Source: Clostridia bacterium (GTDB lineage: Bacteria; Bacillota_A; Clostridia; Oscillospirales; QAKW01). From it: a stretch of 20,890 nucleotides of DNA. The notes under the pieces are model-generated. The model was not told the origin of the DNA. It saw nothing but the letters and a program-made list of their open reading frames with translations, and made no database searches. Numbering within the stretch: the first letter of the stretch is position 1; every line of letters starts with the position of its first letter. The stretch lies in assembly GCA_017396865.1 (NCBI GenBank), contig JAFQKO010000031.1, positions 1 to 20,890 on the forward strand. Direction: 5' to 3'. The position numbers and the translations under genes are program-made. This document shows, one piece after another, positions 3,721 through 18,092 of the stretch.

Positions 3721-4649
3721 AAGCTTCTCCATTCTCTTTTTACGTTTAGATTATTATAACTCTTTTTTCTCCGTTTGTCAAAAGAAATCAAAAAAAGAGC
3801 GAAAAAGAAGAAAAACAGCGCCGCTTGTGGGCAGGCGGCCGCAAAAGCAAGGCCTCCCGCGTAAATAAGCTTGCTATGCAGCATGGGCAGCGGCGAAAGC
3901 CCCGCCCCCACCAGAAAGGCGGCGTTTTGCAGAAACACCGAAAGGCTTGAAAAGCCAACCATCATCCCGCAGTACCATAAGGGCATCGGCGGCAGAGCGG
4001 TGATTCCGCCCGTCAGCTCCAAAAAACCGTACCAACGGGAAAAGAAGGGCAGCTCTGCGCAAAGGGCTGCAATGGCCGAAAAAGCGGCAACGTAGGCGGT
4101 CAGCGTCAGGCAACCGCTTGCTGCCCCGCCGATCCCCTCGGTCAATAGCGCAATAAGGGGGCGGTGCGGCTGCGGCAGCGGCGGCTCCCCGCTGAAAACT
4201 CCGTGCCGTAAGGCAATTAAAAAGGAGAGGGCAAGCTGTCCACTGTAAAGCAAAAGCCCTGCGGTGCGATCCCCGCGCAGAACGCCGCCGAAATAACCGA
4301 TCAAAAAGGAGGGCGAGGCATTGGCACAGCAGCGGGAGAGCCGCAGGCATTGTTCAGCGTTGATCAGGCCCCGCCGATAGGCGCGTACCGCCGTTTTAAT
4401 GCCTAAGGGAAAGCCGCAAAGCTGGGCGGTCAGCCAAACCGTTGCGGTGGCAGGCAGCGGCAGATGATCTGCCAGTTCTCCGATCATGCCGCAGACCACC
4501 GCTGTCGGGAAAAGAGCGGGCAAAATGCTGCGATAGGAAAGGGCAAGCCCGCTTCGTACCCCTTCTGCAGCCGCTGTGCTGCGGGCAATCAGGAGGAAGA
4601 GCGCCCCGAAGAGCAATAGGATCCATAATAAATTCAATCTCTTTTTCAT
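3717..4649 (-). CDS. ylbJ: YlbJ-like sporulation integral membrane protein (nucleoside-recognition/gate domain)
   Basis: A 310-residue hydrophobic protein read from the ATG at 4649 (MKKRLNLLWILL); a longer frame to 4742 would run over the divergent yqfC start. It has about eight membrane segments. The central part resembles the gate domain of the YlbJ/SpmA group: ILPALFPTAVVCGMIGE, then CGFPLGIKTAVRAYRRG and LSRCCANASPSFLIGYFGG. In B. subtilis ylbJ belongs to the mother-cell sigma-E regulon and is needed for proper spore formation; the transported substrate is unknown. The gene is divergent from yqfC across only 50 bases, which fits shared sporulation timing. No clear ribosome site precedes the ATG. 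The family call is good; whether it is orthologous to B. subtilis YlbJ is less certain. Confidence 0.78.
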   Translation of the reverse strand: MKKRLNLLWILLLFGALFLLIARSTAAAEGVRSGLALSYRSILPALFPTAVVCGMIGELADHLPLPATATVWLTAQLCGFPLGIKTAVRAYRRGLINAEQCLRLSRCCANASPSFLIGYFGGVLRGDRTAGLLLYSGQLALSFLIALRHGVFSGEPPLPQPHRPLIALLTEGIGGAASGCLTLTAYVAAFSAIAALCAELPFFSRWYGFLELTGGITALPPMPLWYCGMMVGFSSLSVFLQNAAFLVGAGLSPLPMLHSKLIYAGGLAFAAACPQAALFFFFFALFLISFDKRRKKSYNNLNVKREWRSL

Positions 4650-4699
4650 ATTAAATGCTATGCCCGCCGCATAAAAATAATACGAAAAGAGGGATGCGT

Positions 4700-5002
4700 A
4701 TGAAACGAAAAATAAAGCGCAAGCATCGTAAGAGAGATGCATGGGGGTGCTTGGTTCGCTGTATGGATCTGCCCGCTTTTTCGGCGGGTACCGATGAATG
4801 CGTGGAGGTCTACGGCGGGAATACGGTGCAGATCGAGGGGGCGAAGGGGATCCATACCTATGAGCGGGAGGTTGTGAAGGTGCACATGAAGCAATATCTG
4901 CTGGCGATCTACGGCTCGGATTTTGAGCTGTTGCACTTCACCGACGGCACCCTTCGGGTGCTCGGAACGCTCCGCTCGCTGTGTTGGGAGGCGGAAGGGT
5001 GA
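4700..5002 (+). CDS. yqfC: Sporulation protein YqfC
   Basis: A 100-residue basic-start protein (MKRKIKRKHRKR), close to the ~93 residues of B. subtilis YqfC. I chose the ATG at 4700 because AGAGGG (4688-4693) lies six bases upstream; the ATG at 4694 abuts it. The body has the short beta-strand pattern of the family (ECVEVYGGNTVQIEGAKGI, then FTDGTLRVLGTL). YqfC is a conserved endospore-former protein made in the mother cell; its molecular role is not established. Its stop overlaps the GTG start of yqfD (GTGA at 4999-5002), the usual gene pair. It opens the long operon that ends with mutS2. Confidence 0.88.
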   Translation: MKRKIKRKHRKRDAWGCLVRCMDLPAFSAGTDECVEVYGGNTVQIEGAKGIHTYEREVVKVHMKQYLLAIYGSDFELLHFTDGTLRVLGTLRSLCWEAEG

Positions 5003-6165
5003 AAATAGCGGCATTCTTTGGCGGTCGGGTGGTGCTTTCGGCCAAGGGCGGCTGTACCGAGCAGTTTCTGAACCGTTTGTATCGCGCGGGCTTGCGGGTC
5101 TATGCTCCCGCGCGTCGGGAGGACGGTACCCTGCGGCTCACCATGCCGATCAAGGACTTTAAAAAAATTCGTCCCCATGCCTTTAAAACGGGTACGCGGG
5201 TGCGGATTTTGAAGAAAAAAGGCTTTTTCCGCGTGATCCGACCCGTTCGCCGTCGATTGGGATTGGCGATCGGTGCGGCGCTGTTTTTGGCGGTTCTGTA
5301 TTATTCCTCCGGCTTTGTTTGGCAGATCGAGGTGCGGGGCTGCGAAACCGTTTCCGCCACCGAGATTCGGGCTGATTTGGAGCCGATGGGGCTTTACGTG
5401 GGCTGTTCGCGGGGGCTGGACGTCAACCCTATCGAGAATCGATACCTTACCGCCAATGAGAAGCTTGCTTGGATGTCCATCAATATTCGCGGCACTACCG
5501 CTTATGTAGATGTAAAGGAAAAAGACTTAACGCCTGAGATCTTAGATAGTACCACCCCCACAAACATTTTGGCCGAGCGGGATGGGATCATCACCGAGCT
5601 GCGGGACTACGGCGGAACCCGTCGGGTGGAGGTGGGGATGGCGGTGCGGGCGGGCGACGTGCTGGTAAGCGGGGATTGGACCGATCAGTATGGGGTGCGT
5701 CGTTTGAGCCGAAGCGTGGCAACCGTTCGAGCGGAAACCCGTCGAGAAACGGAGATTACCGTCCCGTTGACCGAAAGCTATCGCCAAAAAACGGGAAAAA
5801 CCACAAAAAAATTCACACTTTCTTTAGGGAAGTTGAAGATTCCTCTTTATTTTAGCAAAAAAATATCTTATAATAGTTATGATACCGTGGAAAAGAGCGT
5901 CCCGCTGTCGATCGGCGGCTTTGTTTTCCCCTTGCGGATCTGTTCGCTGGAGGCGGAGGAGGTGGAACTGATCACCGAAACCCGCACCGTTGAGCAGGCA
6001 CGTAAGGCGGCGATGGCCGAGCTTGCCTTTTATGAGGCGGATCGGTTGGCGGAGGTAACGGTGCTGCGCCGTGAGGTGGAGGAGGTTACCGAGGAGGATG
6101 CCTTGATTCTGCGTGTCGTATTTTACTGTGAAGAGGAGATCGGCGTGGAAGTGCCGATCCGCTAA
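4999..6165 (+). CDS. yqfD: Sporulation protein YqfD
   Basis: A 388-residue protein, close to the ~398 residues of B. subtilis YqfD. The start is the GTG at 4999, with GGAGG (4987-4991) seven bases upstream; an in-frame GTG at 4981 lies before that site. It has a ~85-residue cytoplasmic N-terminus (RVVLSAKGGCTEQFLNRLYR), one membrane segment at about 87-108, then an extracytoplasmic part. That part has a FtsQ/DivIB-like POTRA-type start (VWQIEVRGCETVSATEIRAD) and family motifs NILAERDGIITEL and VGMAVRAGDVLVSG. In B. subtilis it belongs to the sigma-E regulon and is needed for sporulation. It is translationally coupled to yqfC and 11 bases from phoH. Confidence 0.93.
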   Translation: MKIAAFFGGRVVLSAKGGCTEQFLNRLYRAGLRVYAPARREDGTLRLTMPIKDFKKIRPHAFKTGTRVRILKKKGFFRVIRPVRRRLGLAIGAALFLAVLYYSSGFVWQIEVRGCETVSATEIRADLEPMGLYVGCSRGLDVNPIENRYLTANEKLAWMSINIRGTTAYVDVKEKDLTPEILDSTTPTNILAERDGIITELRDYGGTRRVEVGMAVRAGDVLVSGDWTDQYGVRRLSRSVATVRAETRRETEITVPLTESYRQKTGKTTKKFTLSLGKLKIPLYFSKKISYNSYDTVEKSVPLSIGGFVFPLRICSLEAEEVELITETRTVEQARKAAMAELAFYEADRLAEVTVLRREVEEVTEEDALILRVVFYCEEEIGVEVPIR

Positions 6166-6176
6166 AAGGAGTAAGA

Positions 6177-7154
6177 ATGCAAAAAGTATTTGAAACACCG
6201 GAGCTGGCGTTGATCCCCGCGGTGTTTGGTCCCTTTGATGAAAATGCAGGCATTATCGAAAATGAGTTGGGGATCCACCTGGTCAACCGCGATGATCATT
6301 TGATTTTGAGCGGCGAAGAAACCAATGTGGAAAAGGCGGCGGAGGTGCTGAAGAATCTCTTTAATCTGGCCTCCGCAGGTGAGCTGATCGACGTGCAAAA
6401 GGTGCGCTATCTGATCAATCTGGCGCGGGAGGATTCCGGCTGTAACGTGGTTCAGGCGCTGGATGAGTGTATTTGTATCACCACCCGCGGCAAGCCCATC
6501 AAGCCTAAAACCATCGCCCAAAAGGCTTATGTGGAGTGTATCGATAAGAATGTGGTCACCTTCGGCGTCGGCCCCGCGGGTACAGGTAAGACCTATCTGG
6601 CCGTGGCGCTGGCCGTGACCGCGCTGAAATCCAAGCAGGTCTCCAAGATCGTGCTGACCCGCCCCGCTGTGGAGGCGGGAGAGAAGCTGGGCTTTTTGCC
6701 CGGCGATCTGCAGAATAAGGTCGATCCCTACCTGCGCCCGCTCTATGATGCGTTGTTTGAAATGCTCGGCCCCGAAACGGTGGCGGGCTATATGGAAAAG
6801 AATATCATCGAGATCGCGCCGCTTGCTTATATGCGCGGCCGTACGTTGGATAATAGCTATATCATTTTGGATGAGGCGCAAAATACCAGCATCGAGCAGA
6901 TGAAGATGTTTTTGACCCGCTTCGGTTTTAATTCCAAGATCGTTGTTACCGGCGATCCCACCCAGATCGATCTGGACGGCAAGCCCTCGGGGCTGATGCA
7001 CGCCCTGAAGATATTGAAGGATATCGATCAGATCGCCATCCATCGGTTTGAGAAGAAGGATATCGTGCGCCATGCGTTGGTGCAGAAAATTGTCGATGCT
7101 TATGAAAGGAAGTCCAATGAAGGTAACCGTAACAATGGAAAGCAGCGTCCATGA
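6177..7154 (+). CDS. phoH: PhoH family P-loop ATPase
   Basis: A 325-residue cytoplasmic ATPase. The ATG at 6177 follows AAGGAG (6166-6171). The N-terminal ~110 residues form the KH-like part, with FGPFDENAGIIENELGI. The PhoH ATPase domain has Walker A GPAGTGKT at 132-139, the signature LTRPAVEAGEKLGFLPGD at 160-177, and Walker B IILDEAQN at 229-236. The GDPTQIDL and GL segments follow. PhoH proteins are linked to RNA metabolism and commonly sit beside ybeY, as here. The 3' end overlaps the ybeY start by 38 bases. In B. subtilis yqfF lies between phoH and ybeY; there is no room for it here. Confidence 0.96.
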   Translation: MQKVFETPELALIPAVFGPFDENAGIIENELGIHLVNRDDHLILSGEETNVEKAAEVLKNLFNLASAGELIDVQKVRYLINLAREDSGCNVVQALDECICITTRGKPIKPKTIAQKAYVECIDKNVVTFGVGPAGTGKTYLAVALAVTALKSKQVSKIVLTRPAVEAGEKLGFLPGDLQNKVDPYLRPLYDALFEMLGPETVAGYMEKNIIEIAPLAYMRGRTLDNSYIILDEAQNTSIEQMKMFLTRFGFNSKIVVTGDPTQIDLDGKPSGLMHALKILKDIDQIAIHRFEKKDIVRHALVQKIVDAYERKSNEGNRNNGKQRP

Positions 7155-7569
7155 GGCGCTGATCCAAAAGGCCGCCGAGGCGGCGCTCAACTATGAAGAA
7201 TATCCCCAAGATGCTGAAATTGAAGTGGTGATCGCCTCCTTGGAGGAGATCCATGCGATCAATATGGAGCAACGCGGCATCGATCGCCCCACCGACGTGC
7301 TTTCCTTTCCCATGGAGGAGGAGCCCTTTGAGGCAGAGCCCGATCCCGCCACGGGTGCGGTGTTTTTGGGCAGTATGGTGCTTTGTGTGGATAAGGCAAA
7401 GCAGCAGGCCGAGGAATACGGCCACTCCCTTGAGCGGGAGATCGCTTTTTTGACGGTCCATAGCGTTCTGCACCTGCTGGGCTACGACCATGAGCTCGGC
7501 GAGGAAGAGGAGCGGGAGATGTTTCGCCGCCAGGAAGCGGTTCTCAATGAAATGGGGCTCACCCGATGA
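7117..7569 (+). CDS. ybeY: Endoribonuclease YbeY (16S rRNA maturation)
   Basis: A 150-residue metalloprotein read from the ATG at 7117, where AAAGGA (7105-7110) gives a normal site; the frame opens further upstream inside phoH but without a ribosome site. The metal-binding motif HSVLHLLGYDH holds the three zinc histidines H115, H119 and H125. The family strand RGIDRPTDVLSFP is at about 53-65. YbeY takes part in 16S rRNA 3'-end processing and 70S quality control. It overlaps phoH at its start and dgkA at its end (ATGA, 7566-7569), so the three are translationally linked. Confidence 0.96.
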   Translation: MKVTVTMESSVHEALIQKAAEAALNYEEYPQDAEIEVVIASLEEIHAINMEQRGIDRPTDVLSFPMEEEPFEAEPDPATGAVFLGSMVLCVDKAKQQAEEYGHSLEREIAFLTVHSVLHLLGYDHELGEEEEREMFRRQEAVLNEMGLTR

Positions 7570-8027
7570 AGGCGCTCTTTAAAAGCTTTGGCTATGCCCT
7601 GCGCGGGATAGGGCGGCAGATCGCCTGTGAACGGAATTTCAGGATCCATTGCGTGGCGGTTCTCACCGTATTGCTCTTTTCGCTGTTTTATGACTTTTCG
7701 GCGATGGAATACGGCCTGCTGATTTTGCAAATGGCGTTTGTGTTGAGCGCCGAGAGCCTCAATTCCGCCATCGAGCAGACCGATGATGCCGTTACGTTGG
7801 AGCAAAATGAGCGCATCCGCCGCGCCAAGGACAGCGCGGCCGCCGCTGTGCTGATCGCTGCCATCGGTGCGGTGGTGTTGGCGGTGCTGCTCTTTTGGGA
7901 TACGGCAGTCTTTGCGCGGATCGCCCGTCACTTTGGTGCGTGGCCGCACCTGTTGGGGCTGATCGCCTATGCAGTTGTCATGTCCATTTTGATACTTTGC
8001 AAAAAAACATATAAAAAGGAACGATAA
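7566..8027 (+). CDS. dgkA: Diacylglycerol/undecaprenol kinase, DgkA family
   Basis: A 153-residue membrane protein with the family signature ESLNSAIEQTDDAV (residues ~62-75) and AKDSAAAAV (86-94), which form the Mg-ATP and lipid site. In Gram-positives this enzyme mainly phosphorylates undecaprenol, feeding lipid carrier back to cell-wall synthesis. Three core helices are visible. The C-terminus is about 30 residues longer than the usual ~120-125 and carries an extra hydrophobic segment (GLIAYAVVMSILILC), so a fourth helix is likely. Its ATG overlaps the ybeY stop. The B. subtilis order dgkA-cdd-era is shortened here: no cytidine deaminase gene follows. Confidence 0.93.
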   Translation: MKALFKSFGYALRGIGRQIACERNFRIHCVAVLTVLLFSLFYDFSAMEYGLLILQMAFVLSAESLNSAIEQTDDAVTLEQNERIRRAKDSAAAAVLIAAIGAVVLAVLLFWDTAVFARIARHFGAWPHLLGLIAYAVVMSILILCKKTYKKER

Positions 8028-8028
8028 A

Positions 8029-8913
8029 ATGTCAACGAAAACAGTATTTGCCACCCTGATGGGGCGGCCAAACGTAGGAAAATCCACTCTGCTGAACCGC
8101 CTGATCGGTGAAAAGATCTCCATCGTTTCTCCCAAACCGCAAACCACCCGTACCCGTATCACCGGGATCCTTACCAAGGATGAGGTGCAGTACGTCTTCT
8201 TGGATACCCCCGGCTTTATTGTGGGTAAAAACGGGCTGGGCAAGCGGATGGAGCAAACGGTCAGCGATACGGTGGATGAAACCGAGATCGCCATCTTTGT
8301 GGCAGAAGCAAAGGCTCCCAACGAGGTGGAAAAGAAGATGCTTGCCCGCTTGGAGCAGATGGGCACTCCCGCCTTCTTGGTGCTGAATAAGGTGGATGCT
8401 ATTCCTAAGGAAAAGATTTTGGCGGCGATTGCCGCCTACACTGCAGAATTTGAATTTGATGCGGTGATCCCCCTGAGCGCAAAAAACGGCGATGGGGTTG
8501 AAATCTTGTTGGACGAGCTCAAAGCCCGTGCCGAGGAGTCTCCCTTCTTCTTCGATGAAGATCAGCTCAGCGACCAAAGCGAGGCGGTCTACGCCTGCGA
8601 GGTGGTGCGGGAAAAGATGCTGTATCTGCTGGGCCAGGAAATTCCCCATGGCGTTGCGCTGGCAGTGGATTCCTTTGAGGAAGAGGAGGGCTTGATCTCC
8701 ATCTACGTGGTGATCTATTGCTCCAAGGATTCCCATAAGGGCATTATCATCGGCAAAAACGGCGCTAAGCTCAAAGAGATCAGCACCAAAGCCCGCGAGG
8801 AGCTGGAGCGGCATTTCGATTGTAAGGTCTATTTGAAATGCTTTGTGAAGGTCAAGCGGGATTGGGAAAATAACGCGGGCCTTTTGGATTCGTTAGGATT
8901 CTCTGCCGAATAA
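8029..8913 (+). CDS. era: GTPase Era, ribosome assembly
   Basis: A 294-residue GTPase starting one base after the dgkA stop, with AAAAGGA (8014-8020) as ribosome site. G motifs are all present: G1 GRPNVGKS (12-19), a switch region with PQTTRTRITG, G3 DTPG (59-62), G4 NKVD (120-123) and G5 SAK (150-152). The C-terminal KH domain has GIIIGKNGAKLKEI (238-251). Era binds the 3' end of 16S rRNA and supports 30S assembly, matching its neighbours ybeY and phoH. Length and motif spacing are normal for the family. Confidence 0.98.
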   Translation: MSTKTVFATLMGRPNVGKSTLLNRLIGEKISIVSPKPQTTRTRITGILTKDEVQYVFLDTPGFIVGKNGLGKRMEQTVSDTVDETEIAIFVAEAKAPNEVEKKMLARLEQMGTPAFLVLNKVDAIPKEKILAAIAAYTAEFEFDAVIPLSAKNGDGVEILLDELKARAEESPFFFDEDQLSDQSEAVYACEVVREKMLYLLGQEIPHGVALAVDSFEEEEGLISIYVVIYCSKDSHKGIIIGKNGAKLKEISTKAREELERHFDCKVYLKCFVKVKRDWENNAGLLDSLGFSAE

Positions 8914-8978
8914 ACCATTAATTGCTATCTCCCTTTTGCCTACTTTCGCGTATACTACCTATGAAGGAGTGAACGCAA

Positions 8979-9125
8979 ATGGACGAAAAGGAAGCATGGA
9001 AAAAATTTGAAGCAACAGGCAGTGTTGAGGCTTATCTGCAATATGCTGCCTGCAAGGAAAGGGAAGCGGGTCATGACGCGCAAAGTCAAGGGCGTGCTTC
9101 TGCGGATCGGTCAAACGATTCGTGA
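8979..9125 (+). CDS. yqzL: YqzL-like small protein between era and recO
   Basis: A 48-residue open frame starting at the ATG at 8979, with a clean AAGGAG (8964-8969) nine bases upstream, better than the site of recO itself. The N-terminus reads MDEKEAWKKFEATGSVEAYL, with the W..F..TG....YL pattern of the YqzL family, which sits between era and recO in many Firmicutes. The function is unknown. The last 53 bases overlap the recO start at 9073 in another frame, so translation of this small gene may deliver ribosomes to recO. The C-terminal ~20 residues are polar and low in complexity, constrained by the overlap. Confidence 0.8.
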   Translation: MDEKEAWKKFEATGSVEAYLQYAACKEREAGHDAQSQGRASADRSNDS

Positions 9126-9783
9126 GGAGCGCGCACTTACCGTTCTCACCGAGGAGCTGGGCTGTGTCACCGTCTATGCCAAGGTGAATAAAAAAATTCA
9201 ATACGACCAGTTCTATTTCGGGGAATGGGTTCTTTACGAAACCGCGGGCGGCAATCACCTGCTTAATTCATTTTCCTTGGAGGAGCCCTTCCATGAGCTG
9301 AAGGAGCAGATCGAGCATACCTTTTTGGCAAGCTATTTTGCTCAGCTTGTGTTGCATTTTTGCAAGGGCGAGCGGCAGGAGCTGGGTGTTTTAATGAAGC
9401 TGCTGCTCAATGGGCTGTATCTGCTGTGTAAGGGTCGATCGCCGATCTTGGTCAAGGCGGTCTTTGAACTGAAAACGATGCAGCTGATGGGCTATTGCCC
9501 AACGCTTGCGTCCTGCGGCCATGAGGGGCGGTATTTTGCGCTGGAGGACGGCGCGATCCTTTGCGATCAATGCGCAATGCCGACCAAAAGCATGCCCATC
9601 ACCGCCACCGTCGCGGCGGCCATGACCCATATTTTAAATCAACCGCCTGCCAAGGCCTATGGCTTTTCCGTTCCCGCCGAGGAGCTTTCCCGCTTGGGAC
9701 GGCTGACCGAGGCCTTTACATTGTATCATCTGGAACTCCGTGCTTCCGCGCTGGAAATGTGGAAAACTGTTTATGAAGGATAA
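9073..9783 (+). CDS. recO: DNA repair protein RecO
   Basis: A 236-residue protein. The frame opens at 9007, but the expected RecO N-terminus (MTRKVKGVLLRIGQTIREE) starts at the ATG at 9073, after GGGAAG (9061-9066). It has an N-terminal OB fold, then a helical domain with a zinc site formed by C142, C148, C164 and C167 (GYCPTLASCGH, CDQC). RecO loads RecA with RecR on SSB-coated single-stranded DNA. It follows era and the yqzL-like gene in the standard Firmicutes order, and its stop lies two bases before mutS2. Confidence 0.93.
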   Translation: MTRKVKGVLLRIGQTIREERALTVLTEELGCVTVYAKVNKKIQYDQFYFGEWVLYETAGGNHLLNSFSLEEPFHELKEQIEHTFLASYFAQLVLHFCKGERQELGVLMKLLLNGLYLLCKGRSPILVKAVFELKTMQLMGYCPTLASCGHEGRYFALEDGAILCDQCAMPTKSMPITATVAAAMTHILNQPPAKAYGFSVPAEELSRLGRLTEAFTLYHLELRASALEMWKTVYEG

Positions 9784-9785
9784 AA

Positions 9786-12164
9786 ATGAGTAACCGAAAT
9801 TTATTTTATTATAAAAAATCGCTGGGTGCGCTGGAATATTTCAAGGTGCTGGAAAAGGCGGCAAGCCGTTGCGTCACCGAGGAGGCAGCCAACCGCCTGC
9901 GGGAGCTGCTCCCGCTTTTTGACGCCCCCTGCGCGCAGGTGCAGATCGATCAGACCGCGGCGGCCATGCACCTTTTGGAGCGCAGTCCCCGCTTTCCGCT
10001 GAATCGGCTGAGCGAAAATCTGCCGCTCTACATAAGTAAGGCGGAAAAGGGGATCACCCTCGGCGCCATCGAATTGATGGCGGCGGGCTCTCTTTTGAAA
10101 ACAGGAAGGGATCTGCGCCGTTACTACAGCGATCAGAATATCGATACCCCCTCGCTGGATCTGTTTTTTGAGCAGCTTTATGAGGATCAGCCCCTCTATG
10201 AGCGGATCGACCGTACCTTTATCACCGAGGAACTGATCGCCGACGATGCTTCGCCTGCGCTGGCCTCCATCCGCCGTAAGATCGCTTCCACCGCAGGAGA
10301 GATCAAAAGCCGCTTAGAGCAGTATATCCGTACCCCCGAGGTGGCCAAGTCCCTGCAAGAGCCGATCGTCACCCTGCGCTATGATCGCTACGTGGTCCCC
10401 GTCCGTGCCGATAATCGCGGCGAGGTCAAGGGTCTTTTGCATGATACCTCCAATAGCGGCGGAACGTTGTTTATCGAGCCGTTTTTCGTGGTGGAGGGCA
10501 ATAATAAGATCCGCAAGCTGGAGGCGGAGGAAAAGGCAGAAATTGCCAAGATCATGGAAGAGCTGACCCAAAAGGTCACCGAGATCGCCGCCCCTCTGCG
10601 CACCTCCTATCGGGCGATCGTTGCGCTGGATATGGTGTTCGCCAAGGCAAAATATGCAGGGGATCAGAATTGCGTTCCGCCTACCTTAACAAAGAATAAG
10701 ACCATCGAGATCCGCGGTGCCCGCCATCCGATGATCTCTAAAGAGCAGATGGTGCCGTTGGATATTTGCATGGGAAACGGTATTGATACCGTGGTCATCA
10801 CCGGCCCGAATACAGGTGGTAAAACGGTGTTTTTAAAAACCCTCGGCCTGCTCACCCTGATGGCAAAGGCGGGATTTTTGGTGCCTGCCTTGGAGGCCAA
10901 GCTGTATATCTTCGATCGGGTGTATGCCGATATCGGCGATGAGCAGTCCATCGAGCAATCTCTTTCTACTTTTTCGTCCCATTTGAAAAATATTCGGAAT
11001 ATCATGCAGCATAGTGATGCCGAAAGTCTGGTGCTGTTTGATGAGCTGGGCAACGGGACCGACCCCGTGGAGGGTGCGGCGCTGGCCGTCTCGGTGATCG
11101 AGCGGCTGCGGAAGGGCGGCTCCTACGTGGCGGCCACCACCCATTACAGTGAGCTCAAGACCTATGCGCTCTCCCACGACGGGGTGCAGAATGCGTCCTT
11201 TGCCTTTAATCTGGAAACCTTAAGCCCCACCTATCGGCTGCAGCCGGGCATCCCCGGTAAATCCTATGCCTTTGAGATCTCCCGCCATTTGGGCCTGCCC
11301 GACGACGTCATTAAGGATGCGGAAGGGCGGGTCGGTGAGAGCGACCGTCGGCTGGAAAAGGTCATCGACCGCCTCCAGCAGGAGATGAACCAATATCAAG
11401 ATAAAATCAGCGCCCTCAGCGAAGAGCGGCTCGCCTTGAAAAAGGAGCGGGACGCGCTGGCCGAGGAACGTAAAAAACTGCTGGCGGGGGCCGACCGTGA
11501 GGTGGCAGACGCGCAGCGTAAGGCACGGATGACGGTGGAAAACGCTCGCCGCCAGGCCGATGCTTTTATGAAACAGTTGAAGGAGAAGCAGGAGCTGCTC
11601 GATAAGGCCACCGCACAGGCGTTGCGCAGCGGTGTGAAAAGCGGTTCGTCCAAGCTGCTCGACCATGTCGGCGGTGAAGCGGCCGTATCGCGAACGGGCG
11701 ATCAGATCCAAGGCGAGATCAAGGTTGGAATGCGGGTATTCGTCGGTAAGATGAATAAACACGGCACCATCCTTGCCATCCTTGGCGAGCAGGTGCAGGT
11801 CGATTGCGGCGGGATCCGCCTGAAGATCAGCAAAAAAGAACTGTTCGCTCCCAAAGAGGAGGAAAAGAAGGCGGCCAAAACTTCGGTTCGGGTGCAAAGA
11901 ATGGAAGCCCATTCCATGGCACGCTCCGAGCTGGATCTGCGGGGTGAAACCATCCTTGATGCCGAGGAAAAGATCGATCTCTTCCTCGATACCGCCCTGC
12001 TGGATCACCTTCACTCGGTCTCCATCATCCACGGTAAGGGCACCGGCGCACTGCGCGCAGGGGTGCATCAATATTTGCGTACCCACCCGCTGGTGAAATC
12101 CTTCCGCCTCGGCGCCTATGGCGAGGGCGATAGCGGCATCACCGTCGTGGAACTCAAAGACTAA
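9786..12164 (+). CDS. mutS2: MutS2 family ATPase/endonuclease with Smr domain
   Basis: A 792-residue protein of typical MutS2 length. The core and clamp regions come first, then the ATPase: Walker A GPNTGGKT (340-347), STFSSHL (394-400), Walker B LVLFDELGNGTDP (415-427) and TTHYSELK (451-458). Residues ~520-630 form a charged coiled coil. A KOW-like beta segment follows (~655-705). The C-terminal Smr domain (~715-792) has LDLRGET and IIHGKGTGALR. MutS2 lacks the mismatch-binding domain of MutS; it is linked to suppression of recombination and, in B. subtilis, to rescue of collided ribosomes. It is the last gene of the operon. Confidence 0.97.
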   Translation: MSNRNLFYYKKSLGALEYFKVLEKAASRCVTEEAANRLRELLPLFDAPCAQVQIDQTAAAMHLLERSPRFPLNRLSENLPLYISKAEKGITLGAIELMAAGSLLKTGRDLRRYYSDQNIDTPSLDLFFEQLYEDQPLYERIDRTFITEELIADDASPALASIRRKIASTAGEIKSRLEQYIRTPEVAKSLQEPIVTLRYDRYVVPVRADNRGEVKGLLHDTSNSGGTLFIEPFFVVEGNNKIRKLEAEEKAEIAKIMEELTQKVTEIAAPLRTSYRAIVALDMVFAKAKYAGDQNCVPPTLTKNKTIEIRGARHPMISKEQMVPLDICMGNGIDTVVITGPNTGGKTVFLKTLGLLTLMAKAGFLVPALEAKLYIFDRVYADIGDEQSIEQSLSTFSSHLKNIRNIMQHSDAESLVLFDELGNGTDPVEGAALAVSVIERLRKGGSYVAATTHYSELKTYALSHDGVQNASFAFNLETLSPTYRLQPGIPGKSYAFEISRHLGLPDDVIKDAEGRVGESDRRLEKVIDRLQQEMNQYQDKISALSEERLALKKERDALAEERKKLLAGADREVADAQRKARMTVENARRQADAFMKQLKEKQELLDKATAQALRSGVKSGSSKLLDHVGGEAAVSRTGDQIQGEIKVGMRVFVGKMNKHGTILAILGEQVQVDCGGIRLKISKKELFAPKEEEKKAAKTSVRVQRMEAHSMARSELDLRGETILDAEEKIDLFLDTALLDHLHSVSIIHGKGTGALRAGVHQYLRTHPLVKSFRLGAYGEGDSGITVVELKD

Positions 12165-12171
12165 AACATAC

Positions 12172-12195
12172 CCCCGCAAGGCAATCCTTGCGGGG
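12172..12195 (+). terminator. Hairpin after mutS2, probable terminator
   Basis: A perfect 10-bp GC-rich stem (12172-12181 with 12186-12195) with a CAAT loop begins eight bases after the mutS2 stop. Only two T bases follow directly, so termination may be incomplete. Confidence 0.7.
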
Positions 12196-12218
12196 TTCGA
12201 TATATTCGCGCCCTTCTC

Positions 12219-12247
12219 TTGACGAACGGTGTCAAAATTGCTATAAT
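12219..12247 (+). promoter_or_regulatory. Sigma-A-type promoter of the TIR-cyclophilin gene
   Basis: TTGACG (12219-12224), a 17-base spacer and a perfect TATAAT (12242-12247) with an extended TG element at 12239-12240. The predicted start near 12254 leaves a ~46-base leader with GGAGG at 12290-12294. It is the closest match to consensus that I found in the window. Confidence 0.88.
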
Positions 12248-12299
12248 TGTTGCGGTTTCAAAATACGTCAAGCTTCGAGTATGAGGTACGGAGGAAAAA

Positions 12300-14306
12300 A
12301 TGGCAGTTTGTAGATGTAAAATGTGCGGCGGTGCATTGGAAGCCGCCGAAGGAAAAACATATATTTTTTGCGCCTATTGCGGTACGCAGCAAACCTTGCC
12401 GCGGTTGGATGATGAGCACCGTGCCAATCTGTATGATCGCGCCAATCATTTTCGCCGTAATAACGAGTTCGATAAAGCGATGGGGATCTATGAGCAGATT
12501 CTGAACGAGGATACCACCGATGCCGAGGCCTATTGGTCGCTGGTGCTCTGCCGCTACGGCATTGAATATGTGGAGGATCCCGCAACGCGTAAGCGTATTC
12601 CTACCGTAAACCGTGCGCAGTATACCTCCGTTTACGACGATGATAACTATAAGTCTGCCTTGGCCTGTGCCGATGTTTTCCAAAAGCCGATCTATGAAGA
12701 GGAAGCGGCGCAGATCAATGAAATTCAAAAGGGGATTTTGGCCATTTCCCAAAAGGAAGAGCCCTTCGACGTTTTTATTTGCTATAAGGAAACCGACGCC
12801 AACGGCCGCCGTACGCCCGACAGCGTTTTGGCAAACGACCTGTACCATCAGCTGACGCAGGAAGGCTTTAAGGTGTTCTTTTCCCGCATCACGCTGGAGG
12901 ATAAGCTGGGCACCGCCTATGAGCCGTATATTTTTGCGGCGCTGAATAGCGCCAAGGTGATGGTCGTTCTCGGCACCAAGCCGGAGTATTTTAATGCTGT
13001 TTGGGTGAAGAACGAGTGGAGCCGTTATCTGGCTTTGATTAAGCAGGGTCAGCAAAAGATCTTGATCCCCGCCTATAAAGATATGGATCCCTATGATCTG
13101 CCGGAGGAGTTTTCCCATTTGCAGGCGCAGGATATGAGCAAGCTCGGCTTTATGCAGGATCTGATCCGCGGCATCCGAAAGCTGGCGCAGCCCGCCGTGT
13201 CCGACGGAAATTCAAAGGAGAGCGCCGAGGAAAATACCGCAACCGCGCCGCTGCTCAGGCGTGCCTTTCTCTTCCTGGAGGATGAGGATTGGGATCGGGC
13301 GGATGAATATTGCGAGAAGGTGCTGGATATCGATCCCGAATGTGCAGAGGCATACCTTGGTAAGCTGATGGCAGAATTGGGCGTACCCGATCGGAAATCG
13401 CTGAAGGATCTGCGGAAGCCCTTTGATCAGGAAAGCAATTACAAAAAGATCATCCGTTTCGGCGATGAGCAATTGAAACAAGAGCTGCAAGGCTACGTTG
13501 CGTACATCAAAGAAGGCGGCGAGGCAGAGACGTATACCGTCTCTTGCTCCATCTGCGGCCATCATTTTGAAGTAGATGCTCAAACGGTCGAATTGGGTCA
13601 GGCGGTATGCCCGCACTGCGGGGAGGAGTTGGAGTTTGAGTCCGAGGATGATGCATTCAATGACGATTCCGATTACGTGATCGTCTGCCCAAGCTGCAAT
13701 CATGAGTTCTCTCTGGATGCCGAGGCGGCTGCAACGGGTGAAGCCGTATGCCCCAATTGCGAGCAGGAGCTTGAGTTTGATATTGCTGTTTCTGAAAATA
13801 ATACCATTTACTATGCGCGAATTGAAATCGAACGCTATGGCAATATCATGCTGCAACTGGACACCGAAGCTGCTCCGATTACGGTAGAGAATTTTGTCGA
13901 TCTTGCAGAGAGCGGCTTTTATAACGGCCTCACCTTCCATCGGATTATGAAGGGCTTTATGATCCAGGGCGGTGACCCGCTGGGCAACGGTACCGGCGGC
14001 TCCAAAAAGAGTATTGTCGGTGAATTTGCGGAGAACGGATATGATAACGATATTTCCCACGTGCGCGGTGTTATTTCCATGGCACGCTCCGCTAAGCCCG
14101 ATAGCGCAAGCTCGCAGTTCTTTATTGTCCATGAGGATTCCACCTTCTTGGACGGGAAATATGCCGCTTTCGGCTGGGTGACCAAGGGTATGGAGGTTGT
14201 GGATGCTATCTGCGATGCCGCCAAGCCTATTGATAATAACGGCACCGTTCAGCCGATCGATCAGCCGAGAATTCAAAAGATCAAGATCTTTCGATATAAC
14301 GCCTGA
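12300..14306 (+). CDS. Zinc-ribbon / TPR / TIR / zinc-ribbon / cyclophilin fusion protein
   Basis: A 668-residue uninterrupted frame; the ATG follows GGAGG by five bases. Residues 1-35 are a zinc ribbon (C6, C9, C24, C27) and ~40-85 TPR-like helices (NNEFDKAMGIYEQIL). A TIR domain spans ~154-295: FDVFICYKETD, the RITLEDKLG loop and AVWVKNEWSRYL. E239 aligns with the catalytic Glu of NAD-cleaving TIRs. A second TPR-like part (~320-400) precedes two ribbons (C416/C419/C437/C440 and C463/C466/C484/C487). Residues ~503-667 are a cyclophilin with FHRIMKGFMIQGGDP (R548, F553, Q556) and SSQFFIV; the CypA Trp and His positions are F617 and Y621, as is common in bacteria. The protein has no signal peptide or membrane segment. 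The N-terminal ribbon-TPR-TIR part is common in gut Firmicutes; the cyclophilin fusion is unusual. Function unknown: NAD hydrolysis, protein folding or signalling are all inference. Confidence 0.93.
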   Translation: MAVCRCKMCGGALEAAEGKTYIFCAYCGTQQTLPRLDDEHRANLYDRANHFRRNNEFDKAMGIYEQILNEDTTDAEAYWSLVLCRYGIEYVEDPATRKRIPTVNRAQYTSVYDDDNYKSALACADVFQKPIYEEEAAQINEIQKGILAISQKEEPFDVFICYKETDANGRRTPDSVLANDLYHQLTQEGFKVFFSRITLEDKLGTAYEPYIFAALNSAKVMVVLGTKPEYFNAVWVKNEWSRYLALIKQGQQKILIPAYKDMDPYDLPEEFSHLQAQDMSKLGFMQDLIRGIRKLAQPAVSDGNSKESAEENTATAPLLRRAFLFLEDEDWDRADEYCEKVLDIDPECAEAYLGKLMAELGVPDRKSLKDLRKPFDQESNYKKIIRFGDEQLKQELQGYVAYIKEGGEAETYTVSCSICGHHFEVDAQTVELGQAVCPHCGEELEFESEDDAFNDDSDYVIVCPSCNHEFSLDAEAAATGEAVCPNCEQELEFDIAVSENNTIYYARIEIERYGNIMLQLDTEAAPITVENFVDLAESGFYNGLTFHRIMKGFMIQGGDPLGNGTGGSKKSIVGEFAENGYDNDISHVRGVISMARSAKPDSASSQFFIVHEDSTFLDGKYAAFGWVTKGMEVVDAICDAAKPIDNNGTVQPIDQPRIQKIKIFRYNA

Positions 14307-14311
14307 CTAAA

Positions 14312-14341
14312 AAAGCGCTTCGATTTGCATCGAAGCGCTTT
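14312..14341. terminator. Bidirectional terminator between convergent genes
   Basis: A perfect 13-bp stem (14312-14324 with 14329-14341) and TTGC loop begins six bases after the TIR-cyclophilin stop and ends five bases before the stop of the AI-2E gene. A T-rich tract follows on each strand, so it should serve both genes. Confidence 0.9.
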
Positions 14342-14345
14342 GCTT

Positions 14346-15551
14346 TTATTCATCGGAATCTTCAATGATTTCCCGATCAGCGGGGGTGGCATAGTCGGCG
14401 GTTTTGTGGGATTTACCCTGCCGACGCAGCGAATTGTTGACCGCCGCGGTGATGAAATAATAGATCACGGCAAAGATGGGTACGCCCAGCAGCATGCCGA
14501 GGAACCCAAAAAGTCCGCCGAAAAGGAAGAGGGCAAAGATGATCCACAGCGCCGAAAGCCCAACCTGCTTGCTTTGGATCTTGGGGCCGATGATGTTGCC
14601 GTCGATCTGCTCGAAAACGAGGATAAAGATCAGATACGGAATCAGCAGAATCGGCTTGGCAAAAAGGATAATCAACGCAGGCGGGATCGCACCGATCCAG
14701 GAACCGAAATAGGGAATGGTGTTGCAAAGGCCGATGATGATGGCGCAGAGCAGGGCGTAGGGAACGCCCATAATCAGGAAAACAAGGTAAGAGAGCACCG
14801 ATACGATCAGCGAATCCAAAAGCCGCCCGATCATGTAGCTTTGGGTCTTTTCGTGGGTGATCTGCCCGATCCGCAGGATCTGCTCATAGCGTTCCTCTCT
14901 GCGGCAGAGGGAGCGAATCACCTTTTTTGCCTGCGCGATCAGCCGCTCCTTTTCGTGCAGCATATAAACCGAAATGATCAGGCCAACCAGCGTGTTGATC
15001 AGGTACCCGCCCAGCGCAAGGGTGAAGTTGGCCAGCTTGGGAAGAATGTTGCTCAGATAGCCGGAAAAGGAGTGGAATACCTGCTCCATCCCCAATCGGA
15101 TTTCGTCGGAATAGCGGTTGTAAAGCTGTTCGATCTGCGGGCGGTCGTCGATGAAGCCCGTAACGTTTTTGCTCAGAGAATCGTAATAGGCGGGGATCTC
15201 GTTCACTAGCCGCGTCATGCTGTTGATCACCCGCGGCAGCAGATAGATCAACGCGCCCACAACGACCAGCAGAAAGAGAACGAAGGTGATCAGCAATGCA
15301 AGATTGCGCCGCCGCTGCGGCTTTTTAATGCCCTTCAACGCCCGCTCCTCCCAAAATCGCATGATGGGGTTCAAAAGATAAGCGATGGCAAATCCGATGT
15401 AAAAGGGTGCCAGCAGCCCTAAGATGAACTTCGCACCTGCCCAGATCTGGGCGATGTGCAGCAGCAATGCGATGAAAATCGCACTCGCAGCTATCACCAA
15501 AAAGGCGAGAAGCCCCCATCGGCGCTGTTCCTTTGTGAATTTTTCTCTCAT
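14346..15551 (-). CDS. AI-2E family transporter (YtvI/TqsA-like membrane protein)
   Basis: A 401-residue membrane protein with about eight helices and an extracytoplasmic helical loop (~105-170), the AI-2E/YdiK superfamily layout. Signature segments are FYIGFAIAYLLNPI, GLCNTIPYFGSWIGAIPP and DGNIIGPKIQSKQVGLSALW. GAGAGG lies six bases upstream of the ATG on the minus strand. The family name comes from AI-2 export by E. coli TqsA; many members have other or unknown substrates, including Na+/H+ exchange, so no substrate is assigned. The C-terminal ~30 residues are charged and cytoplasmic. It is transcribed alone. Confidence 0.92.
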   Translation of the reverse strand: MREKFTKEQRRWGLLAFLVIAASAIFIALLLHIAQIWAGAKFILGLLAPFYIGFAIAYLLNPIMRFWEERALKGIKKPQRRRNLALLITFVLFLLVVVGALIYLLPRVINSMTRLVNEIPAYYDSLSKNVTGFIDDRPQIEQLYNRYSDEIRLGMEQVFHSFSGYLSNILPKLANFTLALGGYLINTLVGLIISVYMLHEKERLIAQAKKVIRSLCRREERYEQILRIGQITHEKTQSYMIGRLLDSLIVSVLSYLVFLIMGVPYALLCAIIIGLCNTIPYFGSWIGAIPPALIILFAKPILLIPYLIFILVFEQIDGNIIGPKIQSKQVGLSALWIIFALFLFGGLFGFLGMLLGVPIFAVIYYFITAAVNNSLRRQGKSHKTADYATPADREIIEDSDE

Positions 15552-15581
15552 AGTATACCTCTCAAATCAATCACTTTTAAT

Positions 15582-15610
15582 ATTATACACGATATTTCTT
15601 GAATTTACAA
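15582..15610 (-). promoter_or_regulatory. Promoter of the AI-2E transporter gene
   Basis: On the minus strand, TTGTAA (15610-15605), a 17-base spacer and a perfect TATAAT (15587-15582), about 30 bases before the start codon. Its -35 box directly abuts that of the divergent promoter. Confidence 0.75.
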
Positions 15611-15627
15611 TCATTCTTTGCTATACT
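15599..15627 (+). promoter_or_regulatory. Promoter of the yqeG operon
   Basis: TTGAAT (15599-15604), a 17-base spacer and TATACT (15622-15627) with an extended TG at 15619-15620. The -35 box touches that of the opposing promoter. Confidence 0.8.
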
Positions 15628-15660
15628 TAAATTAAATTAATTAGAAGGAGCAATATAATC

Positions 15661-16161
15661 TTGCTGATGCCGAAATTCATGCTCCCAAACGTTCATGCGC
15701 TGACCGACGATTTTCTGGCTGCGCAGAAGATCGGGGGCATCATCTTTGACATTGATAATACGCTGGTCGGCTTCCGTGAGCCGCGTCCTACCCCCGAGGT
15801 GCTGGCGCTGCTGGAGCACCTGAGGGAAAAGGGAATTCAAGTGGCCATCGCCTCCAATAATAAGGAGGAGCGGGTCAAGACCTTCGCCGAAGGCTTGGGT
15901 CTTTCGGCCTATCATCGCAGCGCAAAGCCCTTGGGCTTTGTGCTGAGAAGAATTCGTAAGGAATTCGGCCTCCCTGCCAAGCAGATCGCCTTGGTCGGCG
16001 ATCAGATCTATACCGATATGCTGGGCGGCAATCTGGCGGGGATGATCACGGTGCTGGTGGACCCCATCGACACCAAGGAAACCCGCCTCTTCCGCTTCAA
16101 GCGCAGAATGGAAATGCCGATCATCAATCGAAAACGCAGAAAGGATGAAAAACAGAAATGA
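15661..16161 (+). CDS. yqeG: YqeG family HAD (IIIA) phosphatase
   Basis: A 166-residue HAD hydrolase. The start is taken as the TTG at 15661, ten bases after AAGGAG (15645-15650); an ATG at 15667 is the alternative but lies 16 bases from that site. HAD motifs: the nucleophile loop FDIDNTLVG (first Asp at 29), motif II in AIASNN, a Lys in RSAKPLGF, and motif III/IV GDQIYTDMLGGN. YqeG is a small conserved Firmicutes phosphatase with unsettled substrate, normally next to yqeH; here it is followed by an endonuclease-IV-like gene instead, joined by an ATGA overlap (16158-16161). The C-terminal ~20 residues are very basic. Confidence 0.92.
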   Translation: MLMPKFMLPNVHALTDDFLAAQKIGGIIFDIDNTLVGFREPRPTPEVLALLEHLREKGIQVAIASNNKEERVKTFAEGLGLSAYHRSAKPLGFVLRRIRKEFGLPAKQIALVGDQIYTDMLGGNLAGMITVLVDPIDTKETRLFRFKRRMEMPIINRKRRKDEKQK

Positions 16162-17006
16162 TCCGATTCGGTCCGGGTGGTAATTGCGAATGGTTTAAAG
16201 CCGATGGCAATAAGACCACCGATAAAATGCCCGCCTTCTTGAATAAAATCGGCCTCAATGCCTATGAGGTGGAATGCGGCCGCGGCGTGCGGATGAACGA
16301 GGCAACCGCCAAGGCCTTGCGTGCCGAGGCAGAGAAATATGGTATCGCCCTCTCTATCCATGCGCCCTACTATATCTCCATGTCCTCGCTGGAGGAGGAA
16401 AAGCGGCAGGGAAGTGTCCGCTATCTGCTGGAAAGCGCGGCGCTGGCTAAAAAGATCGGCGCCACGCGGGTGATCTTCCATTCCGGCTCCTGCGCAAAGC
16501 TCAGCAGGGAGGAGGCAACCGCCTTGGCGGTGGATACCCTTCAAAAGGCGGTGGCCGCCTTCGATGCGGAGGGCTACGGCGATCTGATCCTTTGCCCCGA
16601 AACGATGGGTAAGATCAACCAGCTCGGCTCGCTGGAGGAGGTTATGACCCTCTGTAAGGTGGACGACCGCATCCTGCCAACCATCGATTTCGGCCACCTC
16701 AACGCCCGCGAGCAGGGTCTTTTCTATACCGCCGCCGACTATGAGCGGGTGCTGGACGTAATGGAGGATGCGCTGGGTCATGAGCGGGCCACCAAGTTCC
16801 ATACCCACTTTTCCAAGATCGAATATACCACCGGCGGGGAAAAGCGGCATCTGACCTTTGAGGATACCGTCTACGGCCCCGATTTTGCGCCGCTGGCCGA
16901 GGTATTGGCCAAGCGTGGGGCAGAGCCGATCATCATCTGCGAATCGGCGGGAACGCAAAGTAAAGATGCGCTGGAAATGAAGGAAATGTACGAAAAAGTA
17001 AAATAA
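16158..17006 (+). CDS. Endonuclease IV-like TIM-barrel protein (AP2Ec family)
   Basis: A 282-residue TIM barrel close to endonuclease IV in length. The trinuclear zinc ligands appear conserved in place: H68 (IHAPYY), H108 (FHSG), E148 (CPETMG), D177 and H180 (DFGHLNA), H215/H217 (FHTHFS), H231 and E262 (ICESAG). Endonuclease IV has an Asp-x-His pair near position 230; here only the His is obvious (KRHLTF), so activity on abasic sites is likely but not certain. The gene starts inside the stop of yqeG and is followed by a spacer with the efp promoter. Related clostridial proteins are often annotated simply as TIM barrel proteins. Confidence 0.85.
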   Translation: MIRFGPGGNCEWFKADGNKTTDKMPAFLNKIGLNAYEVECGRGVRMNEATAKALRAEAEKYGIALSIHAPYYISMSSLEEEKRQGSVRYLLESAALAKKIGATRVIFHSGSCAKLSREEATALAVDTLQKAVAAFDAEGYGDLILCPETMGKINQLGSLEEVMTLCKVDDRILPTIDFGHLNAREQGLFYTAADYERVLDVMEDALGHERATKFHTHFSKIEYTTGGEKRHLTFEDTVYGPDFAPLAEVLAKRGAEPIIICESAGTQSKDALEMKEMYEKVK

Positions 17007-17009
17007 TAC

Positions 17010-17038
17010 TTGAAATATTGAGAAATATCATGTAAAAT
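17010..17038 (+). promoter_or_regulatory. Promoter of efp
   Basis: TTGAAA (17010-17015), a 17-base spacer and TAAAAT (17033-17038), in an AT-rich spacer. A leader of roughly 35-40 bases is predicted. Confidence 0.6.
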
Positions 17039-17081
17039 ATAGTGTAGAAAATTTTTCGCAAAAGAAAGGAAATATGTAACT

Positions 17082-17645
17082 ATGTTAACTGCAGGCGATT
17101 TTAGAAACGGCGTGACCTTCGATATGGACGGTCAGGTGTTCCAGGTTGTTGAATTCCAGCACGTAAAGCCCGGTAAGGGTGCCGCATTCGTGCGTACCAA
17201 GTTCAAGAACGTGGTAACCGGCGCTGTTGTTGAAAAGTCCTTCAACCCCACCGATAAATTTGAGGAAGCTACCATCGACCGTAAGGATTATCAGTATCTG
17301 TATCAGGATGGCGATCTGTACTATTTCATGGATATGGAAACCTATGATCAGATGCCCCTTGGTCAGGATAAGCTGGGCGAAGCCTTCAAGTTCGTGAAGG
17401 AAAACGACGTTGTGAAGATCATGTCCTATAAGGGCAACGTCTTTGGCGTTGAGTGCCCCTTCTTCGTAAAGCTGTACGTTACCGAGACCGAGCCCGGCGT
17501 TCGCGGCGATACCGCTACCAACGTTACCAAGCCCGCTACTCTGGAAACCGGCGCTGTTGTTAAGGTTCCCATCTTCATCAATGAGGGTGAGCTGATCGAG
17601 ATCGATACCCGTACCGGTGAGTACATGGGTCGTGCAAAGGAATAA
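17082..17645 (+). CDS. efp: Translation elongation factor P
   Basis: A 187-residue EF-P, normal in length. It has the three beta-barrel domains, and the conserved loop [14 protein letters not shown] places K32 at the tip. This is the residue modified in many bacteria (5-aminopentanol in B. subtilis); no modification gene lies in the window. The C-terminal signature is [24 protein letters not shown] relieves ribosome stalling at proline runs. AAAGGA (17065-17070) is 11 bases from the ATG, a little far, and a start-stop ATGTAA (17074-17079) lies in between. The next gene follows after 20 bases with no terminator, so the pair is cotranscribed. Confidence 0.97.
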
Positions 17646-17665
17646 TCTGAGAGGAGAATAAAGCT

Positions 17666-18082
17666 ATGTTAGAGAAGGTTGCTTATATCAAAGGTCTGCT
17701 TCAGGGCATGAAGCTGAAGGATGAGGATCCCTATAAGGAGCTGTTTGCCAACATCGTTGATGTTCTGGAAGACATGGCTGCCGCTGTTGCCGATGCTGAG
17801 GATAATATCATCGATCTGGATGAGTATATTCAGGAGGTGGATGAGGATCTGGCAGCAGTCGAGGATTTCCTGGACGAGGAATGCGACGATTGCGATGAGG
17901 ACGATTATTATTGCATCGTTTGCCCCACCTGCGGCGAAGAGTTCGCTGTAGATGATGAGGTTGCCGAGCTGGGCGAAGTAAAGTGCCCCAACTGCGGTGA
18001 GGATCTGGAATTCGATCTCAACGATATCGAGTGCACCGGCGAATGCGAAGGCTGCGTCGAAGAGTGCGAGGACGCTGAGTAA
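17666..18082 (+). CDS. CD1247-like acidic protein with zinc ribbon
   Basis: A 138-residue, strongly acidic protein; AGGAG (17652-17656) precedes the ATG. The N-terminus (MLEKVAYIKGLLQG) and the following Asp/Glu-rich helices (~20-72, probable coiled coil) match the CD1247 N-terminal domain family of Clostridia, function unknown. A zinc ribbon follows with C86, C89, C107 and C110 (IVCPTCGEEF, CPNCGEDLEFD). Extra cysteines flank it (73, 76, 83 and 123, 127, 130, 134) and could bind more metal. The ribbon has the same 17-residue Cys-pair spacing as the two internal ribbons of the TIR-cyclophilin protein. It is cotranscribed with efp and ends in a strong terminator. Confidence 0.85.
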   Translation: MLEKVAYIKGLLQGMKLKDEDPYKELFANIVDVLEDMAAAVADAEDNIIDLDEYIQEVDEDLAAVEDFLDEECDDCDEDDYYCIVCPTCGEEFAVDDEVAELGEVKCPNCGEDLEFDLNDIECTGECEGCVEECEDAE

Positions 18083-18092
18083 TTGAGCGAAT

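Follow-up and report, generated by a model that had tools for sequence, protein, structure and literature searches.

A cyclophilin in the exchangeable C-terminal slot of a Clostridia TIR protein, and its possible likeness to TRIMCyp

The DNA analysed here, referred to below as the window, is a stretch of 20,890 nt of contig JAFQKO010000031.1 (assembly GCA_017396865.1) from a Clostridia bacterium of the lineage QAKW01 (Oscillospirales). A gene at 12300..14306 on the + strand, stop codon included, encodes a protein of 668 amino acids that joins a TIR domain to a cyclophilin. Our tentative reading, to which we give somewhat less than an even chance, is that this fusion is a horizontally acquired TIR effector whose swappable C-terminal recognition slot now holds a cyclophilin preceded by two CD1247-type zinc ribbons. 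By analogy, it may further be a bacterial counterpart of the primate TRIMCyp proteins, that is, an NAD-cleaving TIR receptor in which a hypermutable lectin-type sensor was exchanged for a cyclophilin that binds a phage protein. This more specific proposal is doubtful.

Architecture and rarity of the fusion protein

The open reading frame begins with ATG, contains no internal stop and is directly preceded by a GGAGG ribosome-binding site, which confirms the fusion as a single frame. A sequence-only reading of this DNA had described the order zinc ribbon, TPR, TIR, TPR, two zinc ribbons and cyclophilin, and this architecture was borne out by the reading frame and by Pfam. The N-terminal zinc ribbon (residues 1-34; 12300..12401, +) carries the cysteines C6, C9, C24 and C27. 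It is followed by a first TPR-like helical region (residues 39-152; 12414..12755, +), where TPR_14 exceeds the Pfam cut-off and a structure model predicts helices. The TIR domain spans residues 153-297 (12756..13190, +), and TIR_2 (PF13676) matches residues 158-281 with an E value of 1.5e-12 and 48.5 bits against a cut-off of 28. A second TPR-like helical region (residues 315-404; 13242..13511, +), supported by TPR_19 above its cut-off and by the model, marks the end of the conserved module. Zn_Ribbon_TF also exceeds its cut-off, and Zn_ribbon_8 does so once the C-terminus is scanned alone. These zinc ribbons span approximately residues 410-499 and, from that scan and their sequence identities, comprise two CD1247-like ribbons at residues 411-447 (13530..13640, +) and 458-495 (13671..13784, +). 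The cyclophilin domain (residues 506-662; 13815..14285, +) is identified by PF00160 (E 2.4e-45) and by its place in a tree.

The residues E239, R548, F553 and Q556, which the same reading had singled out, are all in place. Glu239 (13014..13016, +) ends a WVKNE stretch of the WxxxE type and lies within helix 234-248 of the model. It is invariant across 64 aligned members of the family, as are W235 and the four cysteines of the N-terminal ribbon. A glutamate of helix alpha-C, here E239, is what we take to be the catalytic place of TIR NADases. The TIR fold and the glutamate within helix 234-248 are both present, as judged from model and alignment, and the TIR domain is predicted to cleave NAD+. 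R548, F553 and Q556 are presumably the canonical cyclophilin active-site residues and, together with the domain itself, are the features expected of a peptidyl-prolyl isomerase. Because no stretch of the protein reaches the hydrophobicity of a membrane segment, it is probably cytosolic.

The TIR fold of the N-terminal module is supported by a predicted model restricted to that module. The best TIR match of this model in Foldseek had an E value of 3.1e-3, and the identification rests on an aligned second look. A sequence profile run against the PDB matched one TIR chain (E 2.4e-4), the remaining matches being TPR proteins. This was the second model. In the alignment behind the first, full-length model (A3), the short cyclophilin rows slid onto the TIR part, with 13-21% identity to the window row versus 58-71% in alignment A4, and residues 496-668 of that model are therefore meaningless. 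Three further bridge alignments built with sub-ranges of the window protein fitted cyclophilins or TIRs, never both.

The sequence-only reading knew of no described TIR-cyclophilin fusion, and none besides the window protein was found among the matches listed, the genomes and the literature searched. It had proposed searching the full protein for both domains together, and that search likewise returned no other fusion in the listed matches. In each of three protein searches, the window protein was the only one with TIR and cyclophilin among the 120 best matches; one of these searches used only residues 310-610, in order to bring fusions to the top. No second case occurs among 64 complete relatives scanned, nor among the matches listed for genomes of the order (394) and of the class (391), searches that list part of the matches and score few candidates per genome, so that distant fusions may escape. 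Phage records gave cyclophilin-only matches and no fusion, plasmid records gave no fusion, and a scan of IMG/VR gave one locus with a TIR-DUF6273 protein and no fusion. A family member of the TIR-DUF6273 kind (L144:6001-8463) lies on a contig labelled viral by IMG/VR. Among the best-ranked papers of a literature search that had most subscription journals outside its reach, no TIR-cyclophilin, TIR plus SPFH or TIR plus DUF6273 system was described. In the available portion of its main text, a study of gut TIRs assayed for NADase activity (PMC9092222) contains no TPR, zinc or SPFH term, and a family member may or may not be among its proteins. From the accessible part of PMC11237479, the 'CesT/Tir' named there is a chaperone and not a TIR domain, and the accessible parts of PMC7159879 and PMC3710099 name no system of the TIR-SPFH or TIR-cyclophilin kind.

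A swap slot on a nearly fixed module

Residues 1-405 form the module of a very large, uncharacterised Clostridia family, in agreement with the earlier recognition of a ribbon-TPR-TIR family from gut Firmicutes. The window protein possesses this module of approximately 405 residues with the ribbon cysteines and TIR residues, and is at most 79% identical to the nearest members. Over the first 415 residues, identity to 63 aligned relatives ranges from 49 to 78%, and mean column identity falls to 10% past residue 405. When the C-termini of 65 members were scanned, 41 carried DUF6273. Others ended in RCC1 (4), LRR_5 (3), the ribosomal L7/L12 C-terminal domain (2), M23 peptidase (1), MORN (1) or RHS (1), and a cyclophilin was found once, in the window gene. 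This tally lists 25 of 55 families and excludes 15 of 79 relatives because their sequence was incomplete or rich in X or because the match had no start codon; the N-terminal alignment additionally leaves out L026 and L048 and adds L133. The two L7/L12 proteins are L052:10001-12280 and L073:10001-12142 (PF00542, E 3e-22 and 9e-11).

On a tree from a quick search, the C-terminal type shifts at least 17 times versus 21.1 for shuffled labels, with 8 of 200 shuffles as low; the labels come from our own sequence patterns, and the long rows L070 and L133 meet. Similar modules often bear unlike ends, with slight clustering. Judged from these comparisons, the C-terminus of the family is a swap slot on a nearly fixed module, and it is this slot that the cyclophilin occupies. 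Compared with the DUF6273-ended relatives, the window protein has the same ribbon cysteines and E239 and differs in its ribbons and cyclophilin and in having no SPFH or transmembrane partners within the window.

An indication of what the slot may do comes from the relative L042 (L042:10001-14456), where the end of a TIR-DUF6273 gene (DUF6273, E 1e-29) serves as the variable repeat for a diversity-generating retroelement (DGR). A repeat of 123 nt inside the TIR gene (12376-12498) recurs at 13065-13187 with 86% identity. A reverse transcriptase of 356 amino acids is encoded at 13386-14456 (RVT_1, E 2e-17). Sixteen of the 17 differences fall at adenines of the downstream copy, where A makes up 36 of 123 bases (P 2e-9). 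As read from the nucleotides, this pattern is the signature of a DGR with the TIR protein as its target. DUF6273 has been described as adopting a C-type-lectin-like fold and as being varied by DGRs (PMC10743442, in part), and DGR-varied C-terminal C-type-lectin sensors have been described alongside TIR or other effectors (PMC10907252, in part). Because the DGR hypermutates the slot of L042, and because both the fold and the pairing of such sensors with effectors have been described, the slot is interpreted as a recognition domain, at least in this relative. The conflict proteins of PMC10907252 resemble L042 but, in the accessible part of that paper, are of the STAND/MoxR type and come from multicellular bacteria; the window gene differs in having no DGR repeat. 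No direct repeat of at least 50 nt was found in 12000-16500 of the window, so the gene is not recognisable as a DGR target, and its C-terminus is not DUF6273. In another relative, L039, a piece of 181 amino acids shows 51% similarity to the reverse transcriptase of L042, but it matches nothing in Pfam and the locus has no repeat of 50 nt or more.

The sequence-only reading regarded the gene as a stand-alone system. This holds for the window gene, which is an orphan member, but not for its relatives, which usually do not stand alone. In 56 of 79 relatives, the examined flank encodes an SPFH/Band-7 protein that ends in zinc ribbons (PF13421). A protein of approximately 233 amino acids, membrane-spanning by eye, is present in 53 of these 56 loci, and an extra gene often sits between the SPFH gene and the TIR gene. 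At L001:7175-11872, as at the other 55 loci, the SPFH-zinc-ribbon protein is usually accompanied by the membrane-type protein and often by a variable cargo gene, together with the TIR gene. PADLOC contains no model for the SPFH protein or the membrane protein. Of 26 cargo genes, 18 were scanned with Pfam, and five of these encode defence-type domains above cut-off, namely a second TIR (L018), HEPN RiboL-PSP (L007), SIR2 (L051), FRG (L078) and DUF4365 (L022). The SPFH protein resembles in parts, by our own likening, YdjI of the PspA-YdjGHI membrane stress operon of Bacillus subtilis, which includes a Band-7 protein with C-terminal zinc ribbons; no TIR is seen there in the accessible parts of the sources (PMC8581546, PMC11237479), and the partners are not in the window. 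A same-family genome (L133:371-6815) encodes a TIR protein of 631 amino acids without a large C-terminal domain, and after it come genes for an SPFH protein, a membrane-type protein and a protein whose end looks DUF6273-like by eye; to the eye, parts of the fusion family appear here as separate genes. Among the 23 relatives without SPFH, seven were examined over 8 kb or more to either side, and orphan members therefore exist. Because the SPFH and membrane partners are missing from the window, its gene may not work as most of its relatives do.

Arrival of the gene and origin of its C-terminus

The fusion gene lies between a gene that we take to be MutS2 (9786..12164, +; 81% identity to G108) and an AI-2E family transporter (14346..15551, -; PF01594, E 4e-62; 57% identity to G108). 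MutS2 identities of 81% to G108 and 86% to G410 suggest that the host is of the same genus as these two genomes. The flanks are syntenic with G108 at approximately 72% DNA identity (window 4302-12162 and 14365-18085). The MutS2/AI-2E junction is uninterrupted in both congeners: in G108 the last sense codons of the two genes are separated by 75 bases, stops included, and in G410 the genes nearly abut with nothing between them. In three further genomes of the genus with a full MutS2, the transporter is not within the 1.5 kb examined, the contig of G411 ending there; a sixth, G409, has a MutS2 piece only. No match to the TIR module was found in any of the six genus genomes searched, and it was matched in two of 12 same-family genomes. 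Its identity to the modules of 14 genomes is 67-79% where their MutS2 is only 37-42% identical, a comparison that took in 14 of 16 genomes, two being without a full MutS2. Because the module is so much more similar than MutS2, the fusion gene is, on this comparison of identities, a horizontal gain at the MutS2/AI-2E junction.

An assembly artefact that joins two genes is a very improbable explanation. Two TIR-module pieces lie at contig ends in G412, and such modules can break assemblies. Against it, the frame is continuous with ribbons between its halves, the flanks are syntenic on both sides, and the protein is recorded on six contigs of a protein collection, contigs that are perhaps not independent assemblies. 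The sequence-only reading had held that two separate genes here in related genomes would indicate such a join, and the congener site holds no such pair.

The C-terminus looks pieced together from kinds of domain that are widespread in the host group. Ribbons 2 and 3 are 46-54% and 47-57% identical to the CD1247-type ribbons of nine same-family genomes. A gene for a CD1247-type protein with a like zinc ribbon (17666..18082, +; NF045650, E 2e-20; side-by-side alignment) lies 3.4 kb from the fusion and is a candidate donor. Derivation of these ribbons from the SPFH partner is not favoured; the partner's ribbons are of the Zn_Ribbon_1/DZR kind and those of the fusion of the CD1247 type. In the tree, the cyclophilin domain falls among cyclophilins that look secreted or membrane-anchored by eye (support 95/85), apart from 14 cytosolic PpiB-like ones (100/100) that include those of the genus, and the tree does not favour a recent copy of the genus cytosolic cyclophilin. 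Its row has a long branch (0.38) and was flagged by the tree tool as unsure in place; four other cytosolic cyclophilins fall just outside the secreted-type group, and by path length two of these count among its five closest rows. Among the closest cyclophilins (53-74% in the best local alignment) are tandem cyclophilin proteins of Clostridia, lipoproteins by eye (P0121-P0128, P0131-P0133, P0138), which differ from the fusion in having a signal-like N-terminus, two or three cyclophilin domains and no TIR. P0121-P0128 are lipoprotein-like Clostridia proteins with two or three tandem cyclophilin domains in those read. Two other cyclophilins (L105:903-2177 and P0143) stand behind a sigma-factor-like N-terminus, with PF04542 below cut-off in L105 and PF08281 listed for P0143.

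This makeup also bears on the possibility of a chance fusion without joint function, in which an arriving TIR module lost its C-terminus and was read into host ribbon and cyclophilin sequence. The fusion is a single known case and its ribbons resemble a gene 3.4 kb away, as this explanation would have it. The intact frame argues against it, as do the promoter-like and terminator-like sites and a third-codon-position GC content (GC3) of 0.62 and 0.58 in the two halves, near the 0.60-0.72 of six surrounding genes. Furthermore, none of 34 cyclophilins compared with that of the fusion exceeds 71% identity to it, so it is not a fresh copy of any of them. A chance fusion is therefore unlikely, though it is given somewhat more weight, and a swapped recognition slot and its TRIMCyp-like form somewhat less, since the cargo genes turned out to be less consistently of the defence type.

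The sites in question correspond to the promoter and terminator noted in the sequence-only reading. The promoter-like site (TTGACG-17-TATAAT; 12219..12247, +) is of the sigma-70 type, with TG preceding the -10 as an extended -10; it is a consensus match only, at 11 of 12 positions, and the best of six in the scanned region versus 3.1 +/- 1.7 in shuffles. The terminator-like hairpin (14312..14341, +) between the convergent genes has 13 pairs, with -19.5 kcal/mol for 14307-14352; 10 such sites occur in the scanned region versus 4.3 +/- 2.0 in shuffles. Rfam gave no match at the gathering score anywhere in the window. At its start, 80-1840 and 1844-3172 encode two proteins ending in dockerin type I, the first with an alpha-L-rhamnosidase end.

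Possible roles of the captured cyclophilin

In TRIMCyp, a cyclophilin replaces the variable B30.2 recognition domain. Such fusions of TRIM5 to cyclophilin A are reported from owl monkeys and macaques (PMC4378998, PMC2924388), and the TRIMCyp structure 2x83 is among the matches listed. Both proteins join an immune-type effector to a cyclophilin; they differ in that the effector is TRIM in one and TIR in the other and the cyclophilin here is bacterial, so that the likeness is convergent at most. A recognition role for the cyclophilin is favoured because it sits in a slot that holds other domains in relatives, one of them DGR-diversified, and the primate precedent is the reason for reading it as a binding domain for a foreign protein. 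The immune role of the effector is conjectural, and the recognition role of the slot is supported in one relative.

If the fusion is such a receptor, its TPRs and ribbons would keep a cytosolic assembly inactive until an X-Pro loop became bound in the cyclophilin groove. The loop would belong to a foreign protein, most likely that of a phage and perhaps an abundant one, for instance from the capsid or tail. Once clustered on this ligand, the TIR domains would come together and NAD+ would be cleaved through E239, which would stop the infected cell. The NADase activity, oligomerisation, ligand and anti-phage function are thus proposals. The accessory domains of other TIR NADase effectors (SPARTA TIR-APAZ, AbTir, RUN1, SARM1, Thoeris ThsB/ThcB) differ from those of the window protein, and no argonaute or ThsA was recognised when the 10 other window proteins were compared with PADLOC. 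Assignment to Thoeris was rejected, with ThcB4 at 29.4 bits versus a cut-off of 220, ThsB in PADLOC at E 0.0023 and no ThsA among the same 10 proteins.

Alternatively, the cyclophilin could be a built-in switch, controlling the TIR enzyme by isomerising or clamping a proline that lies either in the TPR/TIR part or in a partner. The sequence-only reading had suggested gating of this kind, which is possible and unsupported. R548, F553 and Q556 are kept, and Cyclophilin 40 also pairs a cyclophilin with TPRs (1ihg, rank 45). Relatives run the same module with other C-termini, however, and the module thus needs no cyclophilin; moreover, no packing of the cyclophilin on the TIR domain could be predicted. 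We regard a switch as improbable. An integrated decoy appears less probable still: here the cyclophilin would mimic a surface or secreted one to which phages or rival factors attach, with binding or cutting of the mimic causing the TIR domain to fire. Its grouping with the secreted-type cyclophilins in a fusion without a membrane segment fits this idea, as does the L7/L12 domain in the slot of two relatives. The uncertain placement described above, with its long branch and the four cytosolic cyclophilins just outside the group, speaks against it. We know of no cyclophilin-targeting factor from gut phages, and sequence hardly separates a decoy from a swapped recognition slot.

Several observations weigh against the interpretation of the fusion as an acquired effector with a swapped recognition slot. 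The fusion is found in one species only, and DGR variation in one relative only, L042. On the tree, C-terminal labels show a slight tendency to cluster. The cyclophilin keeps its canonical active-site residues, which is compatible with plain isomerase activity, and the full-length model yields no usable placement for it. None of the 10 other window proteins scanned resembles a defence gene, the sole sizeable PADLOC match among them being to a GlgB-like model, and tblastn matched no SPFH or transmembrane partner in the 20.9-kb window, a partner that is common but not universal in the family. Eight of the 18 cargo genes are uninformative; HEPN is below cut-off in L004 and L020, the PADLOC match to SIR2 in L040 is weak, and DUF2971, whose function is not known, occurs in L002 and L024. 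The first eight cargo genes were picked by eye as defence-like, with ten added later. Finally, no activity of any family member is reported in the literature searched.

In conclusion, the family would represent a modular receptor platform in gut Clostridia, with a fixed effector and an exchangeable end that has in one case been hypermutated by a DGR. The member with a cyclophilin leads to the prediction that the domain in the slot decides what is sensed. If this is true, bacteria and primates came independently to use a captured cyclophilin as a viral sensor.
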